From the NCBI RefSeq assembly GCF_000427095.1, contig NC_021487.1, positions 1,866,674 through 1,930,673 of the forward strand: a DNA stretch of 64,000 bases. The letters are read 5' to 3'. The position numbers and the translations under genes are program-made. The stretch comes from Chthonomonas calidirosea T49 (lineage in GTDB: Bacteria; Armatimonadota; Chthonomonadetes; Chthonomonadales; Chthonomonadaceae). The notes beneath the pieces were generated by a model. The model searched no databases. It was not told the origin of the DNA and saw only the letters and a program-made list of their open reading frames with translations. Positions 2,363-47,003 of this stretch are shown one piece after another (position 1 is the first letter of the stretch; each line of letters begins with the position of its first letter).

Positions 2363-4300
2363 CTATTTTGGTACGGTAGGATTGGTGCCTGGACGCGGAT
2401 TGAAGTCGGGCGGGATCTCGTTTTTGATCCCTAGCCGATAGTCGGTCGGAACGATTCCTATCTGGCGCAGACCGTAGCCACTCAGCTGTGGTAAGATGCG
2501 CACGACGTTTTCAGGTATCTCGACGTAGCTCGGTGGAAGCGCAGCGGCCTTCCCGGCCAAACGGGCTGGGTCAAACGCCGAAAGGAGGTCGGTGATATCG
2601 GGCGTTATGTCGTCAAAGGGCCCCATGTTCTGAAGTCCCTTCTGCTCCCCTATGGCACGCCCCTTCTTCTCATCCGGCAGATCGGCCAAAGGGGTAAGGC
2701 CGAACACGGCATCTACAAACTTCACCACGGAGGCGGTGTCACCTACCTCGTGGATAATAGCGTGCGTGCGGGCGAAGGGAGAGATGAAGATAAGCGGCAC
2801 GCGTGGCCCATCCGAAAGCCACTTGCCGTCTGGCCCAACAGCCCGCAGAGGAGGCGGCACATGGTCGTAATCGCCCTCCGAATCGTCCCAGGTGATGATG
2901 ATCGCACACTGTTTCCAATAAGGACTATGCGCAATATGGTTGATCGCCTCCGCCACCATCGCTTCGCTGATCTGCGCGTCAGAGTAGCCTGGGTGGTCAT
3001 CATCGCCGAGAAAACTCTTTTGAACCTTGGGGTCAGGGTCGCCCGGCTTCATACCAAAGATATTGCGGTAGCCACCTTTTACATAAAACACACCGCGATC
3101 CGGCAGCTTTCGATGGTCAATGGCTTCAAAGAAGTCCTTAAGTCCGCGCAGCGATTTCGACATCTCCGGATTATTGGCGATATAACCGAAATACTGCGGA
3201 CCGTTATGATGGGTGATATAGGACGCGTGGAGGCCTGCAGCGTCCGTGGGATCGGCATCGTTGTCGTCGGTTGGCTCCTTGTCAAAACCCTCCTCAAACC
3301 AACCCCATGGAATACGATCCCCTCCCGAGTTGGAAAGAAAACTCACATCGTCTAGCACGTCGGCAAGGTCCTTATCAGGGTCACGGTCGTGCTGAGTCAC
3401 CTCTTTGGCCTGCTTCCCCGTTAGCGACAGTGGCAAGGTGGCAAAGGTGAGATTTAGTTGTGGAGGATAACGCAGATCCTCCGGATTGTAGGGCATGCGC
3501 CCCTCCGTAGTCTTATCTTCACTCGATCCCCAGAAGGGGTTGGCATCGTTCAGCACCGGCACGCCGGGGCTATAACCCCCTTTAAAGGCTAGCTCAGGGT
3601 GCAGCATCCATTGAGTCATCCCACTTTGTGCAGCGATAATGGAAAGATTACCTGGAGTGGAAGGGCCGGTCATCTGCTGAAAAATGTGATCGAACAGCAC
3701 AAAGCGATTGGCATAACGCCAGTAGAAAGGAACCGTGTCTCCATCCACGTAGGCCATGGTAAGCTCGCCGAACTGTACCGCTTTCAGCGATGGATTGCCC
3801 TCTCGCGAAATGCGTCTCTCTTCCGTAAGCGCGAAGCGATCCATCTGCGGCTTTCCATCCACAATGTGCATCTTGGTGACGATGCCATCGTGCGAATGAT
3901 CCACATCGTCCGTATCGGCGGCAAACTCGGCCGGTCCAATACGAAACGGATGAATGGTGCGCGTTAGCCCATCTACGCCGATCAGGGGCTGGTAAAACCC
4001 GGGCGTCTCCGCCGCCGGATGAGAGAATAACCCCTCGGCCCCCGGAAATGTCCCGAAATAGTGATCGAAAGAGCGGTTCTCCTGATAGAGAATAAAGACA
4101 TAGCGGATCTTCTTGCGGACAAGCTGCAGCAACTCTTCTCGCGAAAGAACCGGCTCCTTATTCTCCGGCACCGTATAACGAGCGATCGCAGGGTCGGGTT
4201 TCACATCCGCTAGAGGGTTTTGCTGTGGAAGGCAAAAAGCGAGCCCCAGCGCCATCATACTTACCCCCGCCAGGACAGACCCCAATGTCCTTCGTAACAT
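2363..4300 (-). CDS. Secreted phosphoesterase family protein (phospholipase C / acid phosphatase-like)
   Basis: A 645-aa protein with an N-terminal signal peptide (basic start, hydrophobic residues 8-24). Residues 66-84 contain the phosphoesterase family (PF04185) motif F-I-x-x-x-Q-E-N-R-S-F-D-H-Y-F-G-T-F-P-G, where Glu74 and Asn75 are expected metal or catalytic ligands. Later segments 'GPSTPGNLSIIAAQSG', 'IIITWDDSEGDYDH' and 'GPRVPLIFISPFAR' are typical of the family. It likely hydrolyses phosphate esters outside the cytoplasm, perhaps phospholipids, but the substrate cannot be read from sequence. It is a single-gene unit; the next gene downstream on this strand ends before 2238. Confidence 0.85.
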   Translation of the reverse strand: MLRRTLGSVLAGVSMMALGLAFCLPQQNPLADVKPDPAIARYTVPENKEPVLSREELLQLVRKKIRYVFILYQENRSFDHYFGTFPGAEGLFSHPAAETPGFYQPLIGVDGLTRTIHPFRIGPAEFAADTDDVDHSHDGIVTKMHIVDGKPQMDRFALTEERRISREGNPSLKAVQFGELTMAYVDGDTVPFYWRYANRFVLFDHIFQQMTGPSTPGNLSIIAAQSGMTQWMLHPELAFKGGYSPGVPVLNDANPFWGSSEDKTTEGRMPYNPEDLRYPPQLNLTFATLPLSLTGKQAKEVTQHDRDPDKDLADVLDDVSFLSNSGGDRIPWGWFEEGFDKEPTDDNDADPTDAAGLHASYITHHNGPQYFGYIANNPEMSKSLRGLKDFFEAIDHRKLPDRGVFYVKGGYRNIFGMKPGDPDPKVQKSFLGDDDHPGYSDAQISEAMVAEAINHIAHSPYWKQCAIIITWDDSEGDYDHVPPPLRAVGPDGKWLSDGPRVPLIFISPFARTHAIIHEVGDTASVVKFVDAVFGLTPLADLPDEKKGRAIGEQKGLQNMGPFDDITPDITDLLSAFDPARLAGKAAALPPSYVEIPENVVRILPQLSGYGLRQIGIVPTDYRLGIKNEIPPDFNPRPGTNPTVPK

Positions 4301-41457: not shown

Positions 41458-42669
41458 TTAAGGGCAGATATCGGCGCGGGTAAGCGGCAGTGAATCAACG
41501 ACCTCCTTGCTAACCAGAGTTTGATGCACACCATGCGTCCCCACTCGAAAGGCGGCCGAGGCCCCACGCAAATAGAGCCGCCACATTCGAACAAAGCGCT
41601 CTCCGTACATCTCACGCACCTTCGCTACATTCTGCTCGAAACGCTCAGACCACCTATCCAGAGTAAGCCGGTAGTGAGGTCGAAGGTTCTCCACATCCAA
41701 TATGATAAACCCTTGTTCGGATAGGTGGCCCAACATTTCGGGCAGTGTAGGGATGTAACCACCTGGGAAGATATATTTCTGCTCCCAAGAGACCGTGTGC
41801 TGCGCATATTCGGGTGTTGGGGTGCGCAACGTGATGTGGTGCAGCAGCGCCACACCCTGCGGCGCAAGCAACTTGCGTACACAACGGACAAACTCTTTGA
41901 GATGAGGCTTCCCCACGTGCTCGATCATCCCTATGCTGATGATCTTATCGAAGATGACCCCCTCATCGGCAAGCTGTTGGTAATGTTGTAATCGCACCTG
42001 CACGCGATCCTCCAACCCCCGTGCCTTAATCGCATCTAGCGAAGCGTTGTACTGCTCTTGGCTCAGAGTGATGCCCATGGCGTAGACCCCATACTGTTCC
42101 GCGGCGCGCAGGATTAAAGCGCCCCAGCCCGAACCGATGTCGAGCAGCCTTTCGCCAGGTCGGAGCCGCAGCTTCTTCAGCGAGTAGTCCAGCTTGTTGC
42201 GCTGTGCTTCCTCAATGGTGTCGTCGGGTGTGCGGAAAAAGGCACAAGAGTAGGTCATAGTCTCATCGAGCCACAAACGGAAAAAGGCGTTTCCTAGGTC
42301 GTAGTGTGCGGCCACATCCTTTTGCTGCTGTTTGAGAGAGCGCCTTTTTCCACCTGTTACACGCCTAACAAAGCGGAACATTCCCATCGAACGCCACGAG
42401 GACTCTAGCGCGATATTGCGCAGCGCCAGCGCCACTAGGTCGGCGAGATCGCCCTCTACCTCGATATCACCGTTCATGTAGGCCTCTCCGAAAGCAAGGG
42501 CAATGTTCTCGATAAAGGCTCCGATATCTACCGGCTTCAACAACTTCACAGTAAAAACCGGCTCCCCCTCATCTCCATAGCAGCCCGATGAACCGTCCCA
42601 ATAGACGACACGAAAGGGCTCGCCCTTAGCACGAGAGAAGAGGTCATGCAAAAGATGTTTTGCATTCAT
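41458..42669 (-). CDS. cfa: Cyclopropane-fatty-acyl-phospholipid synthase
   Basis: 403 aa from ATG 42669 with AAGGAGA upstream; a longer frame to 42750 lacks this. It transfers a methylene group from S-adenosylmethionine to double bonds of membrane lipid acyl chains. The SAM motif is 'LLDIGSGWGA' (175-184), preceded by 'AHYDLGNAFFRLWLDETMTYSCAFF' which is hallmark for the family, and followed by 'ISIGMIEHVGKPHLKEF'. It acts on the cytoplasmic side of the membrane. An 8-bp inverted repeat (42767-42790) lies about 100 bases upstream, between it and the insertion sequence. Confidence 0.92.
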   Translation of the reverse strand: MNAKHLLHDLFSRAKGEPFRVVYWDGSSGCYGDEGEPVFTVKLLKPVDIGAFIENIALAFGEAYMNGDIEVEGDLADLVALALRNIALESSWRSMGMFRFVRRVTGGKRRSLKQQQKDVAAHYDLGNAFFRLWLDETMTYSCAFFRTPDDTIEEAQRNKLDYSLKKLRLRPGERLLDIGSGWGALILRAAEQYGVYAMGITLSQEQYNASLDAIKARGLEDRVQVRLQHYQQLADEGVIFDKIISIGMIEHVGKPHLKEFVRCVRKLLAPQGVALLHHITLRTPTPEYAQHTVSWEQKYIFPGGYIPTLPEMLGHLSEQGFIILDVENLRPHYRLTLDRWSERFEQNVAKVREMYGERFVRMWRLYLRGASAAFRVGTHGVHQTLVSKEVVDSLPLTRADICP

Positions 42670-42766
42670 TGGCTTTCTCCTTAAAAGCACAAAAGCCCTC
42701 AGCGCACGAGACGTTTTATCTCTTCCATCGTGTGCTAGCGGCTTCCACAACCTCGAACCTCGTTAA

Positions 42767-42790
42767 GATAGCGCCAGCAAGAGCGCTATC
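42767..42790. repeat. Inverted repeat between cfa and the insertion sequence
   Basis: GATAGCGC at 42767-42774 pairs exactly with GCGCTATC at 42783-42790, loop of 8 bases. It lies about 98 bases upstream of the cfa start and next to the presumed right end of the IS. It could be an operator of cfa or part of the IS end region. Confidence 0.5.
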
Positions 42791-42838
42791 TACTTTCATT
42801 GTGAAGCTCCCAACCCACAAGGGGTGGGGGTTCCAAGT

Positions 42839-43999
42839 TCAGCGGGAACTGCTGACTTTCGCCAGTCTGACGTTCCCTCCCTTGTCGTTTTGACTCTCCG
42901 GGCTTCCCACGGCGAGTATTCTCATGCCCTCAAGGAGCAGATTGATGGCGGCGTTGGGGTCACGGTCGTGGATCACGCCACAGCCCCCACACGTCCATTG
43001 CCTGTCCGAGAGTTCGAGATGCTGACGATGGTTACACGGGTGGCACGTTTGGGAGGATGGGAAGAACCTATCCACCTTGACGATACGACAGCGATTCCAT
43101 TCGGCTTTATAGACCAGCATCCGAACAAACGCCCCCAGGGACGCATCGGTGAAACTCTTTGCCAGTTTGGTTTTCACTAAGCCTTTGAGGTTCCAATCTT
43201 CGATGCAGAGGGTGTCGTAGCGGCTGATGAGTTTTGACGAAATCTTGTGAAGCCAGTCGTTACGCTGGTTTCTCACTCTGGCATGGTATACAGCCAGAAC
43301 CTTCTTGCGCTTGCAACGTCTGCGGCTGGTCTTCTGGCTTCTGGAAACAGCACGTTGCAGGCGTTTGAGTTTGCGCTCTGCCTTGCGGTAGAACTTCGGA
43401 GGCTTAACCTTCTCCCCGTTGTCCAGGGTGAAGAAAGACTCCAGACCGACATCTATCCCGACAGGAGCATCCCACACGGGTTCCACATCAGGCAGTTCGA
43501 TGTGGCTGATGAAGCAGACATACCAGTGTCCGTTCGGCTCCTGCTTGATGGTCGCGGATTTAATAGTTCCTTGCATCTCGCGGTGCAGACGGGCTTTCAC
43601 CAGTCCCACTTTGGGGATGGATACCCTTCCGTCCACGATGGTCACGTTCTGCGGAATACGGAAAGCGTTCGGAGTCCGCTTCCTGCTCTTGAACCGGGGA
43701 AACTTTGTCCGCTTCGCGAAGAAGGAGACGAACGCTTTGTCCAAATCCATCAAAGTCTGCTGCAACGCCTGGGAGTGGCACTCTTTGAGGAACGCGGTTT
43801 CAGGCTGTTTCTTGAGAGCCACCAGTTCGGACGCCAGGGCGTTGTAGCCGAGGGTCTTCCCCGTCTCTTTGTAGACCGCTTGCTTTCGTGCCAAGGCCCA
43901 ATTCCAAACAAAGCGACGGCAACCTGCAAAGCGCAGGAACTCTTGCTCCTGTTCGCGGGTCGGGTCGAGTCGGAACTTGTAGGTCTTGGTGGTAATCAT
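42839..43999 (-). CDS. tnpB: TnpB, RNA-guided nuclease of an IS200/IS605 element
   Basis: 386 aa from ATG 43999; the frame extends upstream to 44260 over tnpA but that part is a shadow. The RuvC-like active site is complete: Asp183 ('VGIDVGLESF'), Glu267 ('LCIEDWNLKG') and Asp347 ('HDRDPNAAINLL'). A Cys4 zinc ribbon uses Cys319, Cys322, Cys337 and Cys340. TnpB proteins, ancestors of Cas12, cut DNA as directed by an omega RNA copied from the element's right end; that RNA would here overlap the gene's 3' end and run toward 42790. It starts within 4 bases of the tnpA stop, so the two are coupled. Confidence 0.93.
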   Translation of the reverse strand: MITTKTYKFRLDPTREQEQEFLRFAGCRRFVWNWALARKQAVYKETGKTLGYNALASELVALKKQPETAFLKECHSQALQQTLMDLDKAFVSFFAKRTKFPRFKSRKRTPNAFRIPQNVTIVDGRVSIPKVGLVKARLHREMQGTIKSATIKQEPNGHWYVCFISHIELPDVEPVWDAPVGIDVGLESFFTLDNGEKVKPPKFYRKAERKLKRLQRAVSRSQKTSRRRCKRKKVLAVYHARVRNQRNDWLHKISSKLISRYDTLCIEDWNLKGLVKTKLAKSFTDASLGAFVRMLVYKAEWNRCRIVKVDRFFPSSQTCHPCNHRQHLELSDRQWTCGGCGVIHDRDPNAAINLLLEGMRILAVGSPESQNDKGGNVRLAKVSSSR

Positions 44000-44466
44000 G
44001 CAGGTTTGGACCTCTGATCCTCGATAGACATGGCGATGGTCTTGGCAGACACAGTTCCAGCGGAACCATAGTAACAGCCATCCGACCACAGACCGCTTCC
44101 CCAAAAACGTTTCTGCTTCAAGGTGGGAAAGGTCTTGAAGAGTGAGACAGCCAGGATGCTTTTCAGTGTTTTGGCGATGGTGACGGGAGCCGTTGTTGGC
44201 GGAGCCGATACAAACAGGTGAACGTGATCGGGCATCACCTCCAGAGCCAACTGCTCCCACCCATAGCGTTCACACAAAATCGGCATCTGCTCTTTGATGT
44301 GGTCTTCTATAGCCCCCGTCAGGACTTTGTTGCGATACTTAGTGACGAAGACGATGTGATAGTTGAGAGTATAGACGCTATGCGCTGTGGTCTTGGTCGG
44401 TGTCTGTATCCTCGTCCTTCGGCATGGGATAGGTGTGGACGATAGTCTCACGGATGAGGTCGGCAT
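43996..44466 (-). CDS. tnpA: TnpA, Y1 HUH transposase (IS200/IS605 type)
   Basis: Single-strand 'peel and paste' transposase. The HUH motif is 'MPDHVHLFV' around residues 78-86, and the catalytic Tyr lies in 'SDGCYYGSAG'. The frame is open from ATG 44466, giving 156 aa, but residues 1-25 (MPTSSVRLSSTPIPCRRTRIQ..) look unlike the family and lie inside the upstream RHH gene. The conserved core begins 'VYTLNYHIVFVTKYR' near residue 32. No other good start is present, so translation depends on a start within the RHH gene or on frameshifting. The 3' end overlaps tnpB by 4 bases. Confidence 0.88.
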   Translation of the reverse strand: MPTSSVRLSSTPIPCRRTRIQTPTKTTAHSVYTLNYHIVFVTKYRNKVLTGAIEDHIKEQMPILCERYGWEQLALEVMPDHVHLFVSAPPTTAPVTIAKTLKSILAVSLFKTFPTLKQKRFWGSGLWSDGCYYGSAGTVSAKTIAMSIEDQRSKPA

Positions 44467-44575
44467 ACGTCACATCCTGGTCACGCTTGAAAGACTCGTA
44501 ACGGGCAACCCGTTTTAGGTTCTCAATCACCTGTTTGTCCAGTCGGATGCTGACAGGTTGAGTGTCGGTAGGCAT
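44378..44575 (-). CDS. Ribbon-helix-helix (CopG/Arc-like) protein upstream of tnpA
   Basis: 65 aa. 'QPVSIRLDKQVIENLKRVARY' is a classic first strand plus helix A of an RHH DNA-binding fold, and 'TYADLIRETIVHTYP' fits helix B; the C-terminal tail is acidic. AAGAAGCG lies upstream of ATG 44575 as a possible site. It overlaps the tnpA frame by 89 bases in another frame, so the two are translationally linked. A DNA-binding partner of a Y1 transposase is not part of the textbook two-gene IS200/IS605 layout; it may autoregulate tnpA or bind the IS ends. Confidence 0.7.
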   Translation of the reverse strand: MPTDTQPVSIRLDKQVIENLKRVARYESFKRDQDVTYADLIRETIVHTYPMPKDEDTDTDQDHSA

Positions 44576-44786
44576 GGTACGCTTCTTCGTTGGGTAGTTT
44601 GTTACTACATTCTACTGCATGGAAGCGGAAAATACCTGCCGACTTTGTGCGTTTTTGCGGAAGTTTTTTACACTGGAAGGGGAACACGGCTCTCATCCTC
44701 CCGCTAAAAGCCTCTACTCTAGAAAAACTGCCCCGAAATTCCGATAGCATTAACAGGGCTTATTCCCAACAGAGAGGCCATCTATC

Positions 44787-47003
44787 ATGTCGTCAAACCG
44801 GTTCGTCACAGCCACACGTCCCGTCACCTATCCCCTCTTATCGGAGGGTGCCGTGGCCTTCAACGGCTCGACCATCAGTGTAGACCACAGCTCCTATATG
44901 GCGCAGCACGACCTCGTGTATCACATGATGCCAACGTTAAGCGCTTTGGCCATGCCTCTTGGTGACGGCGATCTCGGCGCCATGGTGTGGTGCCCGGAAA
45001 AGCTCACCGTTCAACTCCAAAAAGCCGATCTATGGGACGATCCGTTGCCCTTTTTAGAGCCTTCCACTCCCCTTGAACCAGGCGAGCCTATCGCAACTAA
45101 TGCAGAATCGTGGAGAATGCTCTCTGCAGGCCAACTAGCCATAGATTGCACCCCTTCGCTTTTCGCCGAGCCGGTTCGCTATGAACAGCGCCTCTCTCCC
45201 TACTCGGCGACGCTCCATATCACGTCCGACTCGCCGGCCGGCTCCTGCCAGGTCACCGCATTCGTGGCCGCAAACACCGGAGTGCTCGTACTGCGGTACC
45301 AGGATCAGAGCCTACGTAACGTGCAACGGCGCATAGAGGTCTCCTTGTGGCGTCAGGCCCATCTGTTCGCACTAGGAGAGACGATAGGCATTCTTCAAGC
45401 ACTGGCAGATAGGCGCTATGCCCTTATGGCACGCGTACAAGGGCGCGAGGTGAAAGCGGGGATGCGCGACTCGCATCACGTCTATCTTGAAATCGCTCCA
45501 AGCCGCTCGTGCGATTTCACTCTCTACGTGGCGGTGGCAACCGTTCCGCGCAACGGCGACCCTGTGAGCGCAGCGCGCGCCCAGCTGCAGTCGGCCATGG
45601 CCAAAGGCTACGACACACTGCTGCGAGAGCATCGCCAACACTGGGCCGCCTTCTGGCAAAAGTCTTTTCTCCGCCTAGATGGAGGCGAATACGACCCCTT
45701 CGCCGCCTATCTGGAGAACTTATGGTATTTGAACCTCTACTATCTGGCCGCCTGTGCGCGCAGCGCCGATGCGCCGCTGCCCAACGGCGCGCTTTGGCTT
45801 AGCCAACAGGATAAGCGCCCACACCCCGCTCTCTACAGCGGCACAGCCCTGCGCACTCTGTTGGCGCCACTGCCTGTGGCCAATCATCCCGAAATCGGCG
45901 TGCCCATTGTGGAGACCTACCACCGCCTCTTGCCGACCATGGCGGCCAAAACGAGCCGCGACATGGGGCTAGGCGGCGCCTATTTTCCGGAACGTTTCAA
46001 TCGCTTGGGGCAAAGTTTCGATGCCTCTTGCACTACCCATAACAACGGCCTCTACACAGCCCTGCTGTTATGGCAACTATGGCGCCACGCGCCCGATCCG
46101 TTTTTGCTGAAGGAGCGGGTCTACCCTCTGTTGCGTGCCTGTACGCAGTTCACCCTGGAGCAGCGTGAAGCGATGAGAAGCAACAACCCTCTCAGCGACG
46201 CCCAGGAGGACTTCCGAGAGCGCGCGGCGCTCTCACGAGCCCTACGCGCCCTGTTGTGGATGAGCACGACGCTCGACATCGGAGAAGAGGAAACACGTGC
46301 CCAGTGGCGCCGGGCGTTGCAGGAATTGGGTGGGGATATGCCTTTCGACCCCCTTCAAGACCTCTTACCCTTCTCGTGCCAAAACGCCGAGCAGCTCTCG
46401 CTGCAGCTACGTCAGTGGCTTCAAGAGAGGCATCAGACACCACAGGGTTGGCTTGCTCCGGAGATGCATGTGCCGCAATTGGACTACAGCGCTCAGCTGC
46501 TTCTGATCATTCAATCGTTACTCCTGCGGGAGGAATCGCTGCCTAGCCTAGCTCTCACGCGCTCCGACATTAACCCTATCGCCTGGGAAGAGGGTTTTGG
46601 CGGAGAAGTTCCCACCGCCATCCACCTGTTTCCGTCGCTGCCCTCTCACTGGAGTGCGGCCTTTACCCTAGCGGCACCGGGTGGTTTTCGCGTAAGTGCC
46701 GAGGTTTTAGAAGGCAAAGTACGGTATATCGCCGTTCGCAGCCTTGTTGGTGGTCTATGCCGATTGGTGAACCCTTGGGGAGCGGGCGCTACCGTTCGCA
46801 TTCTGGACGGCCGGCAAACGCTGGCCGAGGTCTCCGGACCCATACTTGCGTTTGAAACCGTGGCCGGAGGCACCTACCTCATAGAGCGCAGCGACTTTCC
46901 TCTTTCTCGCGCGGTGCGCATTCGTTTTCATGGAAGACGAAACGAAGCTTGTAAGACCGTGGGGCGTCTTTTGCTCGGACTGCCAGCACTGCCAACCTCG
47001 TAA
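44787..47003 (+). CDS. GH95-like (alpha/alpha)6 barrel protein
   Basis: 738 aa, no signal peptide seen. The N-terminal beta domain starts 'MMPTLSALAMPLGDGDLGAMVWCPEKLTVQLQKADLWDD', which mirrors the GH95 opening of the enzyme at 9192. The barrel part has 'AAYLENLWYLNLYYLAACAR' in place of the GH95 '[11 protein letters not shown]', and the hallmark 'NLQGIWN' is lost. The usual catalytic Asn and Glu segments cannot be located with certainty. It may be a divergent fucosidase or galactosidase, or a DUF5703-type protein. The start ATG 44787 has AGAGAGG upstream. Cytoplasmic location suggests work on imported oligosaccharides. Confidence 0.65.
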   Translation: MSSNRFVTATRPVTYPLLSEGAVAFNGSTISVDHSSYMAQHDLVYHMMPTLSALAMPLGDGDLGAMVWCPEKLTVQLQKADLWDDPLPFLEPSTPLEPGEPIATNAESWRMLSAGQLAIDCTPSLFAEPVRYEQRLSPYSATLHITSDSPAGSCQVTAFVAANTGVLVLRYQDQSLRNVQRRIEVSLWRQAHLFALGETIGILQALADRRYALMARVQGREVKAGMRDSHHVYLEIAPSRSCDFTLYVAVATVPRNGDPVSAARAQLQSAMAKGYDTLLREHRQHWAAFWQKSFLRLDGGEYDPFAAYLENLWYLNLYYLAACARSADAPLPNGALWLSQQDKRPHPALYSGTALRTLLAPLPVANHPEIGVPIVETYHRLLPTMAAKTSRDMGLGGAYFPERFNRLGQSFDASCTTHNNGLYTALLLWQLWRHAPDPFLLKERVYPLLRACTQFTLEQREAMRSNNPLSDAQEDFRERAALSRALRALLWMSTTLDIGEEETRAQWRRALQELGGDMPFDPLQDLLPFSCQNAEQLSLQLRQWLQERHQTPQGWLAPEMHVPQLDYSAQLLLIIQSLLLREESLPSLALTRSDINPIAWEEGFGGEVPTAIHLFPSLPSHWSAAFTLAAPGGFRVSAEVLEGKVRYIAVRSLVGGLCRLVNPWGAGATVRILDGRQTLAEVSGPILAFETVAGGTYLIERSDFPLSRAVRIRFHGRRNEACKTVGRLLLGLPALPTS

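Follow-up and report, generated by a model that had tools for sequence, protein, structure and literature searches.

A ribbon-helix-helix-like gene beside tnpA in a lineage of IS200/IS605 elements, with a single, very probably immobile copy in Chthonomonas calidirosea T49

Elements of the IS200/IS605 family are usually described as carrying tnpA, often together with an accessory tnpB (PMC8612924), and in the TnpA enzymes a catalytic tyrosine acts as nucleophile (PMC6006769). An element of this family lies in the 64,000-nucleotide stretch of the C. calidirosea T49 genome analysed here (NC_021487.1, positions 1,866,674 to 1,930,673; the window) and belongs to a group of elements that share with members such as ISDra2 and IS608, which have both genes, the Y1 HUH transposase, TnpB and subterminal hairpins. 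Compared with these, the group adds an upstream gene for a small protein, probably of the ribbon-helix-helix (RHH) type, that overlaps or abuts tnpA. The reading we favour, at a probability of roughly 0.7, is that the one copy in the window, very probably immobile, descends from a lineage in which the RHH gene was gained, and that the RHH protein represses the operon, with tnpA translation coupled to that of the RHH gene.

The RHH-like gene, the start of tnpA and the lesions of the window copy

Among TnpA relatives whose 5' end is intact, the closest is that of a locus from the IMG/VR database (L114), which has the gene order RHH, tnpA, tnpB and a TnpA that is 66% identical to that of the window, with HUH motif and tyrosine present. 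The RHH proteins of the two loci are 40% identical, and their genes differ at 32/10/35 first, second and third codon positions over 60 codons, which is the behaviour of a coding gene. This pattern, together with the homologous gene beside tnpA in other loci, rules out a chance open reading frame (ORF). A decayed relic in another genome of the same phylum (G011; loci L085/L177) has a TnpA 71% identical to that of the window and ends that can be aligned with it. The front part of its RHH gene is gone, both HUH histidines are lost and tnpA is interrupted by an in-frame stop. The relic keeps the last 37 RHH codons, with one in-frame stop among them, and the same RHH stop codon.

The open frame of tnpA in the window (43996-44466) overlaps the RHH gene by 89 nt in a different reading frame. 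Start positions of tnpA are given here as distances from the end of the RHH stop codon, and from 60 nt before to 60 nt after this point the window has no ATG, GTG or TTG in the tnpA frame. The start is missing because the ATG that L114 and the G011 relic carry at -32 is ATA in the window; the ancestral start was therefore likely at 44409, which would give a true overlap of 32 nt rather than 89. Apart from L114 (ATGs at -32/-23), ATGs are found at -8, -4, -23 and -32 in the IMG/VR loci L226, L227, L228 and L229, respectively, at -8 in L212, L213 and L215, and at -11/-8 in L214 (loci of a Bacillota group described below). No strong ribosome site was seen by eye ahead of the L114 ATGs, which would suit translational coupling of tnpA to the RHH gene, as would the overlap itself.

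An earlier note on this DNA, made from the sequence alone, had placed an RHH-type frame, tnpA and tnpB where they were indeed found and had called tnpB intact, which agrees with the presence of Asp183, Glu267, Asp347 and the Cys4 ribbon (Cys319/322/337/340). Its description of an 89-nt overlap with a tnpA devoid of a start is correct for the present frames, but the ancestral overlap was likely shorter. It had overlooked the serine at the catalytic position of TnpA and the missing left-end hairpin. Its suggestion that tnpA might be expressed by frameshifting finds no support and was rejected, as the relatives carry an ATG in or just past the overlap.

On its sequence the window copy is a member of the IS200/IS605 family by descent and very probably active no longer. 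It is very probably an immobile fossil because the tnpA start has become ATA, serine stands for the catalytic tyrosine and no left-end hairpin was found. The tyrosine is present in 155 of 166 aligned TnpAs; the 11 exceptions comprise the window, one gap, L164 (isoleucine, in a match ending early) and eight distant relatives with methionine, leucine or alanine (L092-L097, L101 and L106; 25-27% identity to the window TnpA). A left-end hairpin is present in the G011 relic and in L114, and the right-end hairpin is present in the window. The RHH and TnpB frames of the window remain open. The 3.44-Mb single-contig genome has only this one copy of the element.

Distribution and descent of the RHH-tnpA pair

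In 13 loci an RHH gene that is intact and homologous was found to overlap or abut tnpA on the same strand, and in 13/13 the gene that follows it is tnpA. They comprise the window, five IMG/VR loci (three of them with tnpB, L114 included) and seven loci of the Bacillota group; a search of other copies for the RHH frame, as the earlier note had proposed, thus brought 12 further loci. RHH queries alone found five of them (L208/L209 and L226-L229), all adjoining a tnpA, and TnpA queries found L114 and L210-L215. L226-L229 come from a viral scan with nine RHH proteins as queries; TnpA has the HUH motif and tyrosine in each, TnpB is found only in L227 and L229, and both ends of L229 look hairpin-like by eye. 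Directly after tnpA, L226 and L228 (3561-5171 in both) have a 536-aa frame, without a Pfam match for either and without an NCBIfam match for that of L226.

The RHH gene as a common feature of IS200/IS605 elements was rejected by a profile scan of upstream ORFs, which drew on 181 loci, 172 of which gave a TnpA. From 134 ORFs of 40-200 aa in 103 loci, only that of L114 passed the two-sequence profile. Pfam was run on 132 ORFs (that of the window and 131 of the 134; near-duplicates, one ORF each of L153, L159 and L160, were left out) and gave RHH_1 once (0.0037, L114) and CopG_antitoxin once (window). No recognisable RHH gene was present in 80 genome loci (of 425 relatives), the TnpAs of which are at most 55% identical to that of the window; the 55%-identical TnpA, in L002, is without its 5' part. 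L186 holds, near 3001-3183, a tnpA fragment with the 5' part missing, which shares 79% identity over 61 residues with the tnpA product of L114.

RHH queries gave no match in phages, and in plasmids they matched 12 Aeromonas records (E 5-8) and 2 records (E 0.07-0.1), with none in a third search. A Criblamydia plasmid (L179, 2501-2647), the plasmid match whose neighbourhood was read, encodes an RHH-like protein (two-sequence profile, E ~1e-5) with no tnpA annotated nearby. Matches were found in 0/386 cyanobacterial genomes, a set without a positive control, and in 1/400 Chloroflexota genomes, with two weak matches in loci from which TnpA is absent. RHH matches without a nearby tnpA were weak ones, from the Criblamydia plasmid and the Chloroflexota. 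Nothing came from scans of viral sequences that used P0001 or P0007 as query, and an order-level search gave 4/19, all already in the set.

The Bacillota group is the phylum of Peptococcaceae bacterium CEB3 (Bacillota by NCBI ranks), covered by 378 genomes, in which a profile of two RHH proteins had one match, separated by 4 nt from a downstream TnpA of 29% identity. Across 19 genomes of the family to which this match belongs, TnpA matches occur in 9 (10 matches in total), and seven loci have the RHH gene (L209-L215, read in longer versions as L219-L225), while L216 has an ordinary TnpA without it; this count covers L209-L216, with L217 and L218 left out. In 7/7 loci clpB follows the pair on the same strand, and 8-288 nt separate the tnpA and clpB frames. 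NCBIfam recognised ClpB in L220, to which the ClpBs of the other six loci are 78-88% identical, and no TnpB turned up in the 9-16 kb read. P0007, a protein of this group, scores above the cut-off of the IS200 model; the first HUH histidine of TnpA is lost in 7/7 and the tyrosine in 6/7, L214 keeping a tyrosine. RHH is the more conserved of the two genes: between L210 and L211 the nonsynonymous (dN) and synonymous (dS) rates are 0.038 and 0.86 for RHH and 0.172 and 1.66 for TnpA, with many other dS values of this comparison saturated or undefined. Pair and clpB thus form what is apparently a vertically kept, non-transposing, domesticated operon, and RHH, tnpA and clpB may be transcribed together. 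Tentatively, and with odds we place a little short of even, RHH and TnpA could form a repressor-effector module that is complete in itself and belongs to a distinct IS200/IS605 branch; in a Bacillota lineage it would have been domesticated whole, a conserved RHH and a catalytically dead TnpA making up an operon with clpB, and its autorepression turned to control of a heat-stress chaperone. If true, a transposase would here have been co-opted for a stress gene together with its regulator, which would be unusual.

The TnpAs of the window and L114 are sisters (0.863) in a FastTree phylogeny of 166 rows, and after addition of the Bacillota-group rows (173 in all) an 11-row group (0.701) unites the TnpAs that have an RHH gene beside them with two relics, L002 and L186. 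In an IQ-TREE analysis of 55 selected rows (13 RHH-bearing, L002 and 41 others, L186 being left out), the 13 and L002 stand on one side of a branch with support 92/81; the corresponding split had 60/70 in an earlier 58-row tree without L226-L229. Presence of RHH requires one change on the tree if L002 is taken as unknown and two if it is scored as lacking RHH, and shuffled labels require 11.8 on average (0/500 as low). A single gain of RHH in one TnpA branch is suggested as the simplest reading. The TnpBs of the window and of L114 are 33% identical, their common ancestor spans 58 of 84 TnpB rows, and L114 ranks 30th among the 82 non-self matches of the window TnpB, the window 43rd among the 83 of L114. 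With 66% identity in TnpA and 33% in TnpB, these sequences indicate that TnpB has been exchanged at least once. The earlier note had seen the RHH gene as a control layer on a TnpB system, and here the emphasis was wrong, as RHH follows TnpA, the TnpB of L114 differs in kind and the Bacillota-group loci are without TnpB.

Proposed regulation and rival explanations

The architecture, the conservation and the lesions can be read off the sequence directly, as can, suggestively, the single TnpA branch; the RHH fold of the 65-aa protein, its DNA binding, repression and coupling are inferences. In a working element, a dimer of the RHH protein would bind the leader at the promoter and thereby repress the RHH-tnpA(-tnpB) operon. 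As the start of tnpA lies within the RHH gene or shortly past it, translation of tnpA would be coupled to that of RHH, and the transposase level would stay low. In this reading RHH and TnpA evolve as one unit, with TnpB exchangeable or absent. An autorepressor with coupled tnpA is favoured because of the constant position of the gene, its descent with TnpA, the small RHH-like protein and a TCTAYTATGRTAGAAT-like palindrome that recurs, by eye, at the -10 region of the Bacillota-group leaders. A branch with its own candidate repressor and with intact-looking copies (L114, L227 and L229) would make the control of the simplest transposons testable.

Several observations weigh against this reading. 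The window RHH protein scores 15.4 bits in Pfam (cut-off 28) and that of L114 17.6 bits against RHH_1 (cut-off 20.5), both below; AlphaFold predicts two helices (14-33, 37-48) at low confidence (mean predicted local distance difference test score, 70.6), and Foldseek found no match to the model at E <= 0.001. In L209-L211 tnpA begins 0 to +4 nt after RHH, without overlap, and in the window an ATG at 44464 with AGGA upstream is a possible tnpA start, the G011 relic having no ATG there. The best upstream inverted repeat was matched by <=13/300 shuffles in only 3/13 loci (L211, L212 and L214), and not always at -10; that of the window leader was reached by 283/300 shuffles and is not beyond chance, its GTAGT-N5-ACTAC is arranged differently from the Bacillota-group palindrome, and no sigma-70-like promoter was found. 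As to descent, the IQ-TREE branch is unstarred, the 13 rows without L002 split off in 0/200 bootstrap trees (L002 joining them), and loss of RHH in L002 and L186 is not separable from their 5' truncation. The window TnpB is also near those of L227 and L229 (2nd and 5th of 84 matches; 42 and 41%), so that exchange of TnpB is clear for L114 only and not general.

That RHH stays with TnpA even where TnpB differs or is absent would also be expected of an accessory factor that acts on the transposon ends or with TnpA in the transposition complex, rather than as a transcription repressor. We regard this as unlikely, since the seven Bacillota-group pairs persist in a constant position, TnpB being absent and TnpA having lost catalytic residues, so that no transposition is served; the palindrome at the -10 region of their leaders points the same way, although it was seen by eye and is mostly not significant in the shuffle test. 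Those loci are at the same time a precedent for the idea that the window pair was itself exapted, with RHH and a non-catalytic TnpA serving the host, and the three frames of the window are open despite the lost tyrosine and left-end hairpin. A retained TnpA is, however, difficult to reconcile with the loss of its ATG, and the sole other TnpA match above 45% identity in 291 genomes of the phylum, its own included, is the decayed G011 relic, which gives no sign of long retention; exaptation in the window is quite improbable. Antitoxin genes of the RHH type are known in Tn3 transposons (PMC7157771) and the weak Pfam matches of the window protein are to antitoxin families, but as an antitoxin of a passenger type II pair it should have a toxin gene for a neighbour, and in every one of the 13 loci tnpA takes that place. 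This identity was rejected and is very improbable indeed.

Features of the window copy and comparison with known systems

The genes of the element and its candidate sites are listed in Table 1. Window TnpA scores 115 bits against Pfam Y1_Tnp (cut-off 23), 133 against the NCBIfam IS200 model (cut-off 55) and 26.9 against that of REP-associated tyrosine transposases (RAYT), under the cut-off of 80, and TnpB scores 331.7 bits with the guided_TnpB model (cut-off 100). Rfam had no match in 42600-44900, a result that speaks neither for nor against a guide RNA for TnpB. Just beyond the right end lies a terminator-like stem-loop (42766-42791, plus strand); the scan for such structures found one, fewer than the mean of 2.5 in shuffles. 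Distant Y1-transposase-like frames occur elsewhere in the genome (G000:C1:2365335-2365637, 30% identical, and 2382064-2382297, 26%).

Table 1. Positions of the element's genes and sites in the window
Feature	Position	Strand	Remarks
RHH-like (CopG/Arc-type) gene	44378-44575	minus	65 aa, ATG start; homologues in 12 other loci
tnpA (Y1 transposase, IS200 type)	43996-44409	minus	from inferred ancestral start, now ATA; open frame reaches 44466
ATA codon	44407-44409	minus	ATG at the same place in L114 and the G011 relic; AAGGA just upstream
TCT (Ser) codon at catalytic Tyr position of TnpA	44026-44028	minus	HUH motif DHVH intact
tnpB	42839-43999	minus	386 aa; RuvC residues and Cys4 ribbon present
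Right end: imperfect hairpin with CTTGT loop, then TTCAC	42801-42838	minus	aligns with the G011 relic, resembles L114
Leader	44594-44698	minus	homology to the G011 relic starts at 44698
GTAGT-N5-ACTAC, candidate operator in leader	44608-44594	minus	same arms in the G011 relic

No description of an RHH-tnpA pair was found among the matches listed in the open-access literature, most subscription papers being outside this scope, and the novelty of the pair is limited to the literature searched. Parallels exist in other transposons. In the Tn3 family, toxin-antitoxin genes within the transposition module (PMC7157771) likewise place the gene of a small DNA-binding regulator inside the module; the RHH-tnpA pair differs in having no toxin and a different class of transposase. 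CvkR, a MerR-type repressor of a type V-K CRISPR-associated transposon (PMC9938897), is also a transposon-borne transcriptional repressor, although here the protein is of the RHH and not the MerR type and the element is IS200/IS605 and not Tn7-like. For the clpB loci, the domesticated Y1 transposases TnpA-REP/RAYT (PMC8266576, PMC6006769) are a precedent for the domestication of an IS200-type TnpA. Unlike these, the Bacillota-group TnpA matches the IS200 model, is paired with RHH upstream of clpB and has lost residues of the catalytic site, the first HUH histidine throughout and the tyrosine in all but one locus.
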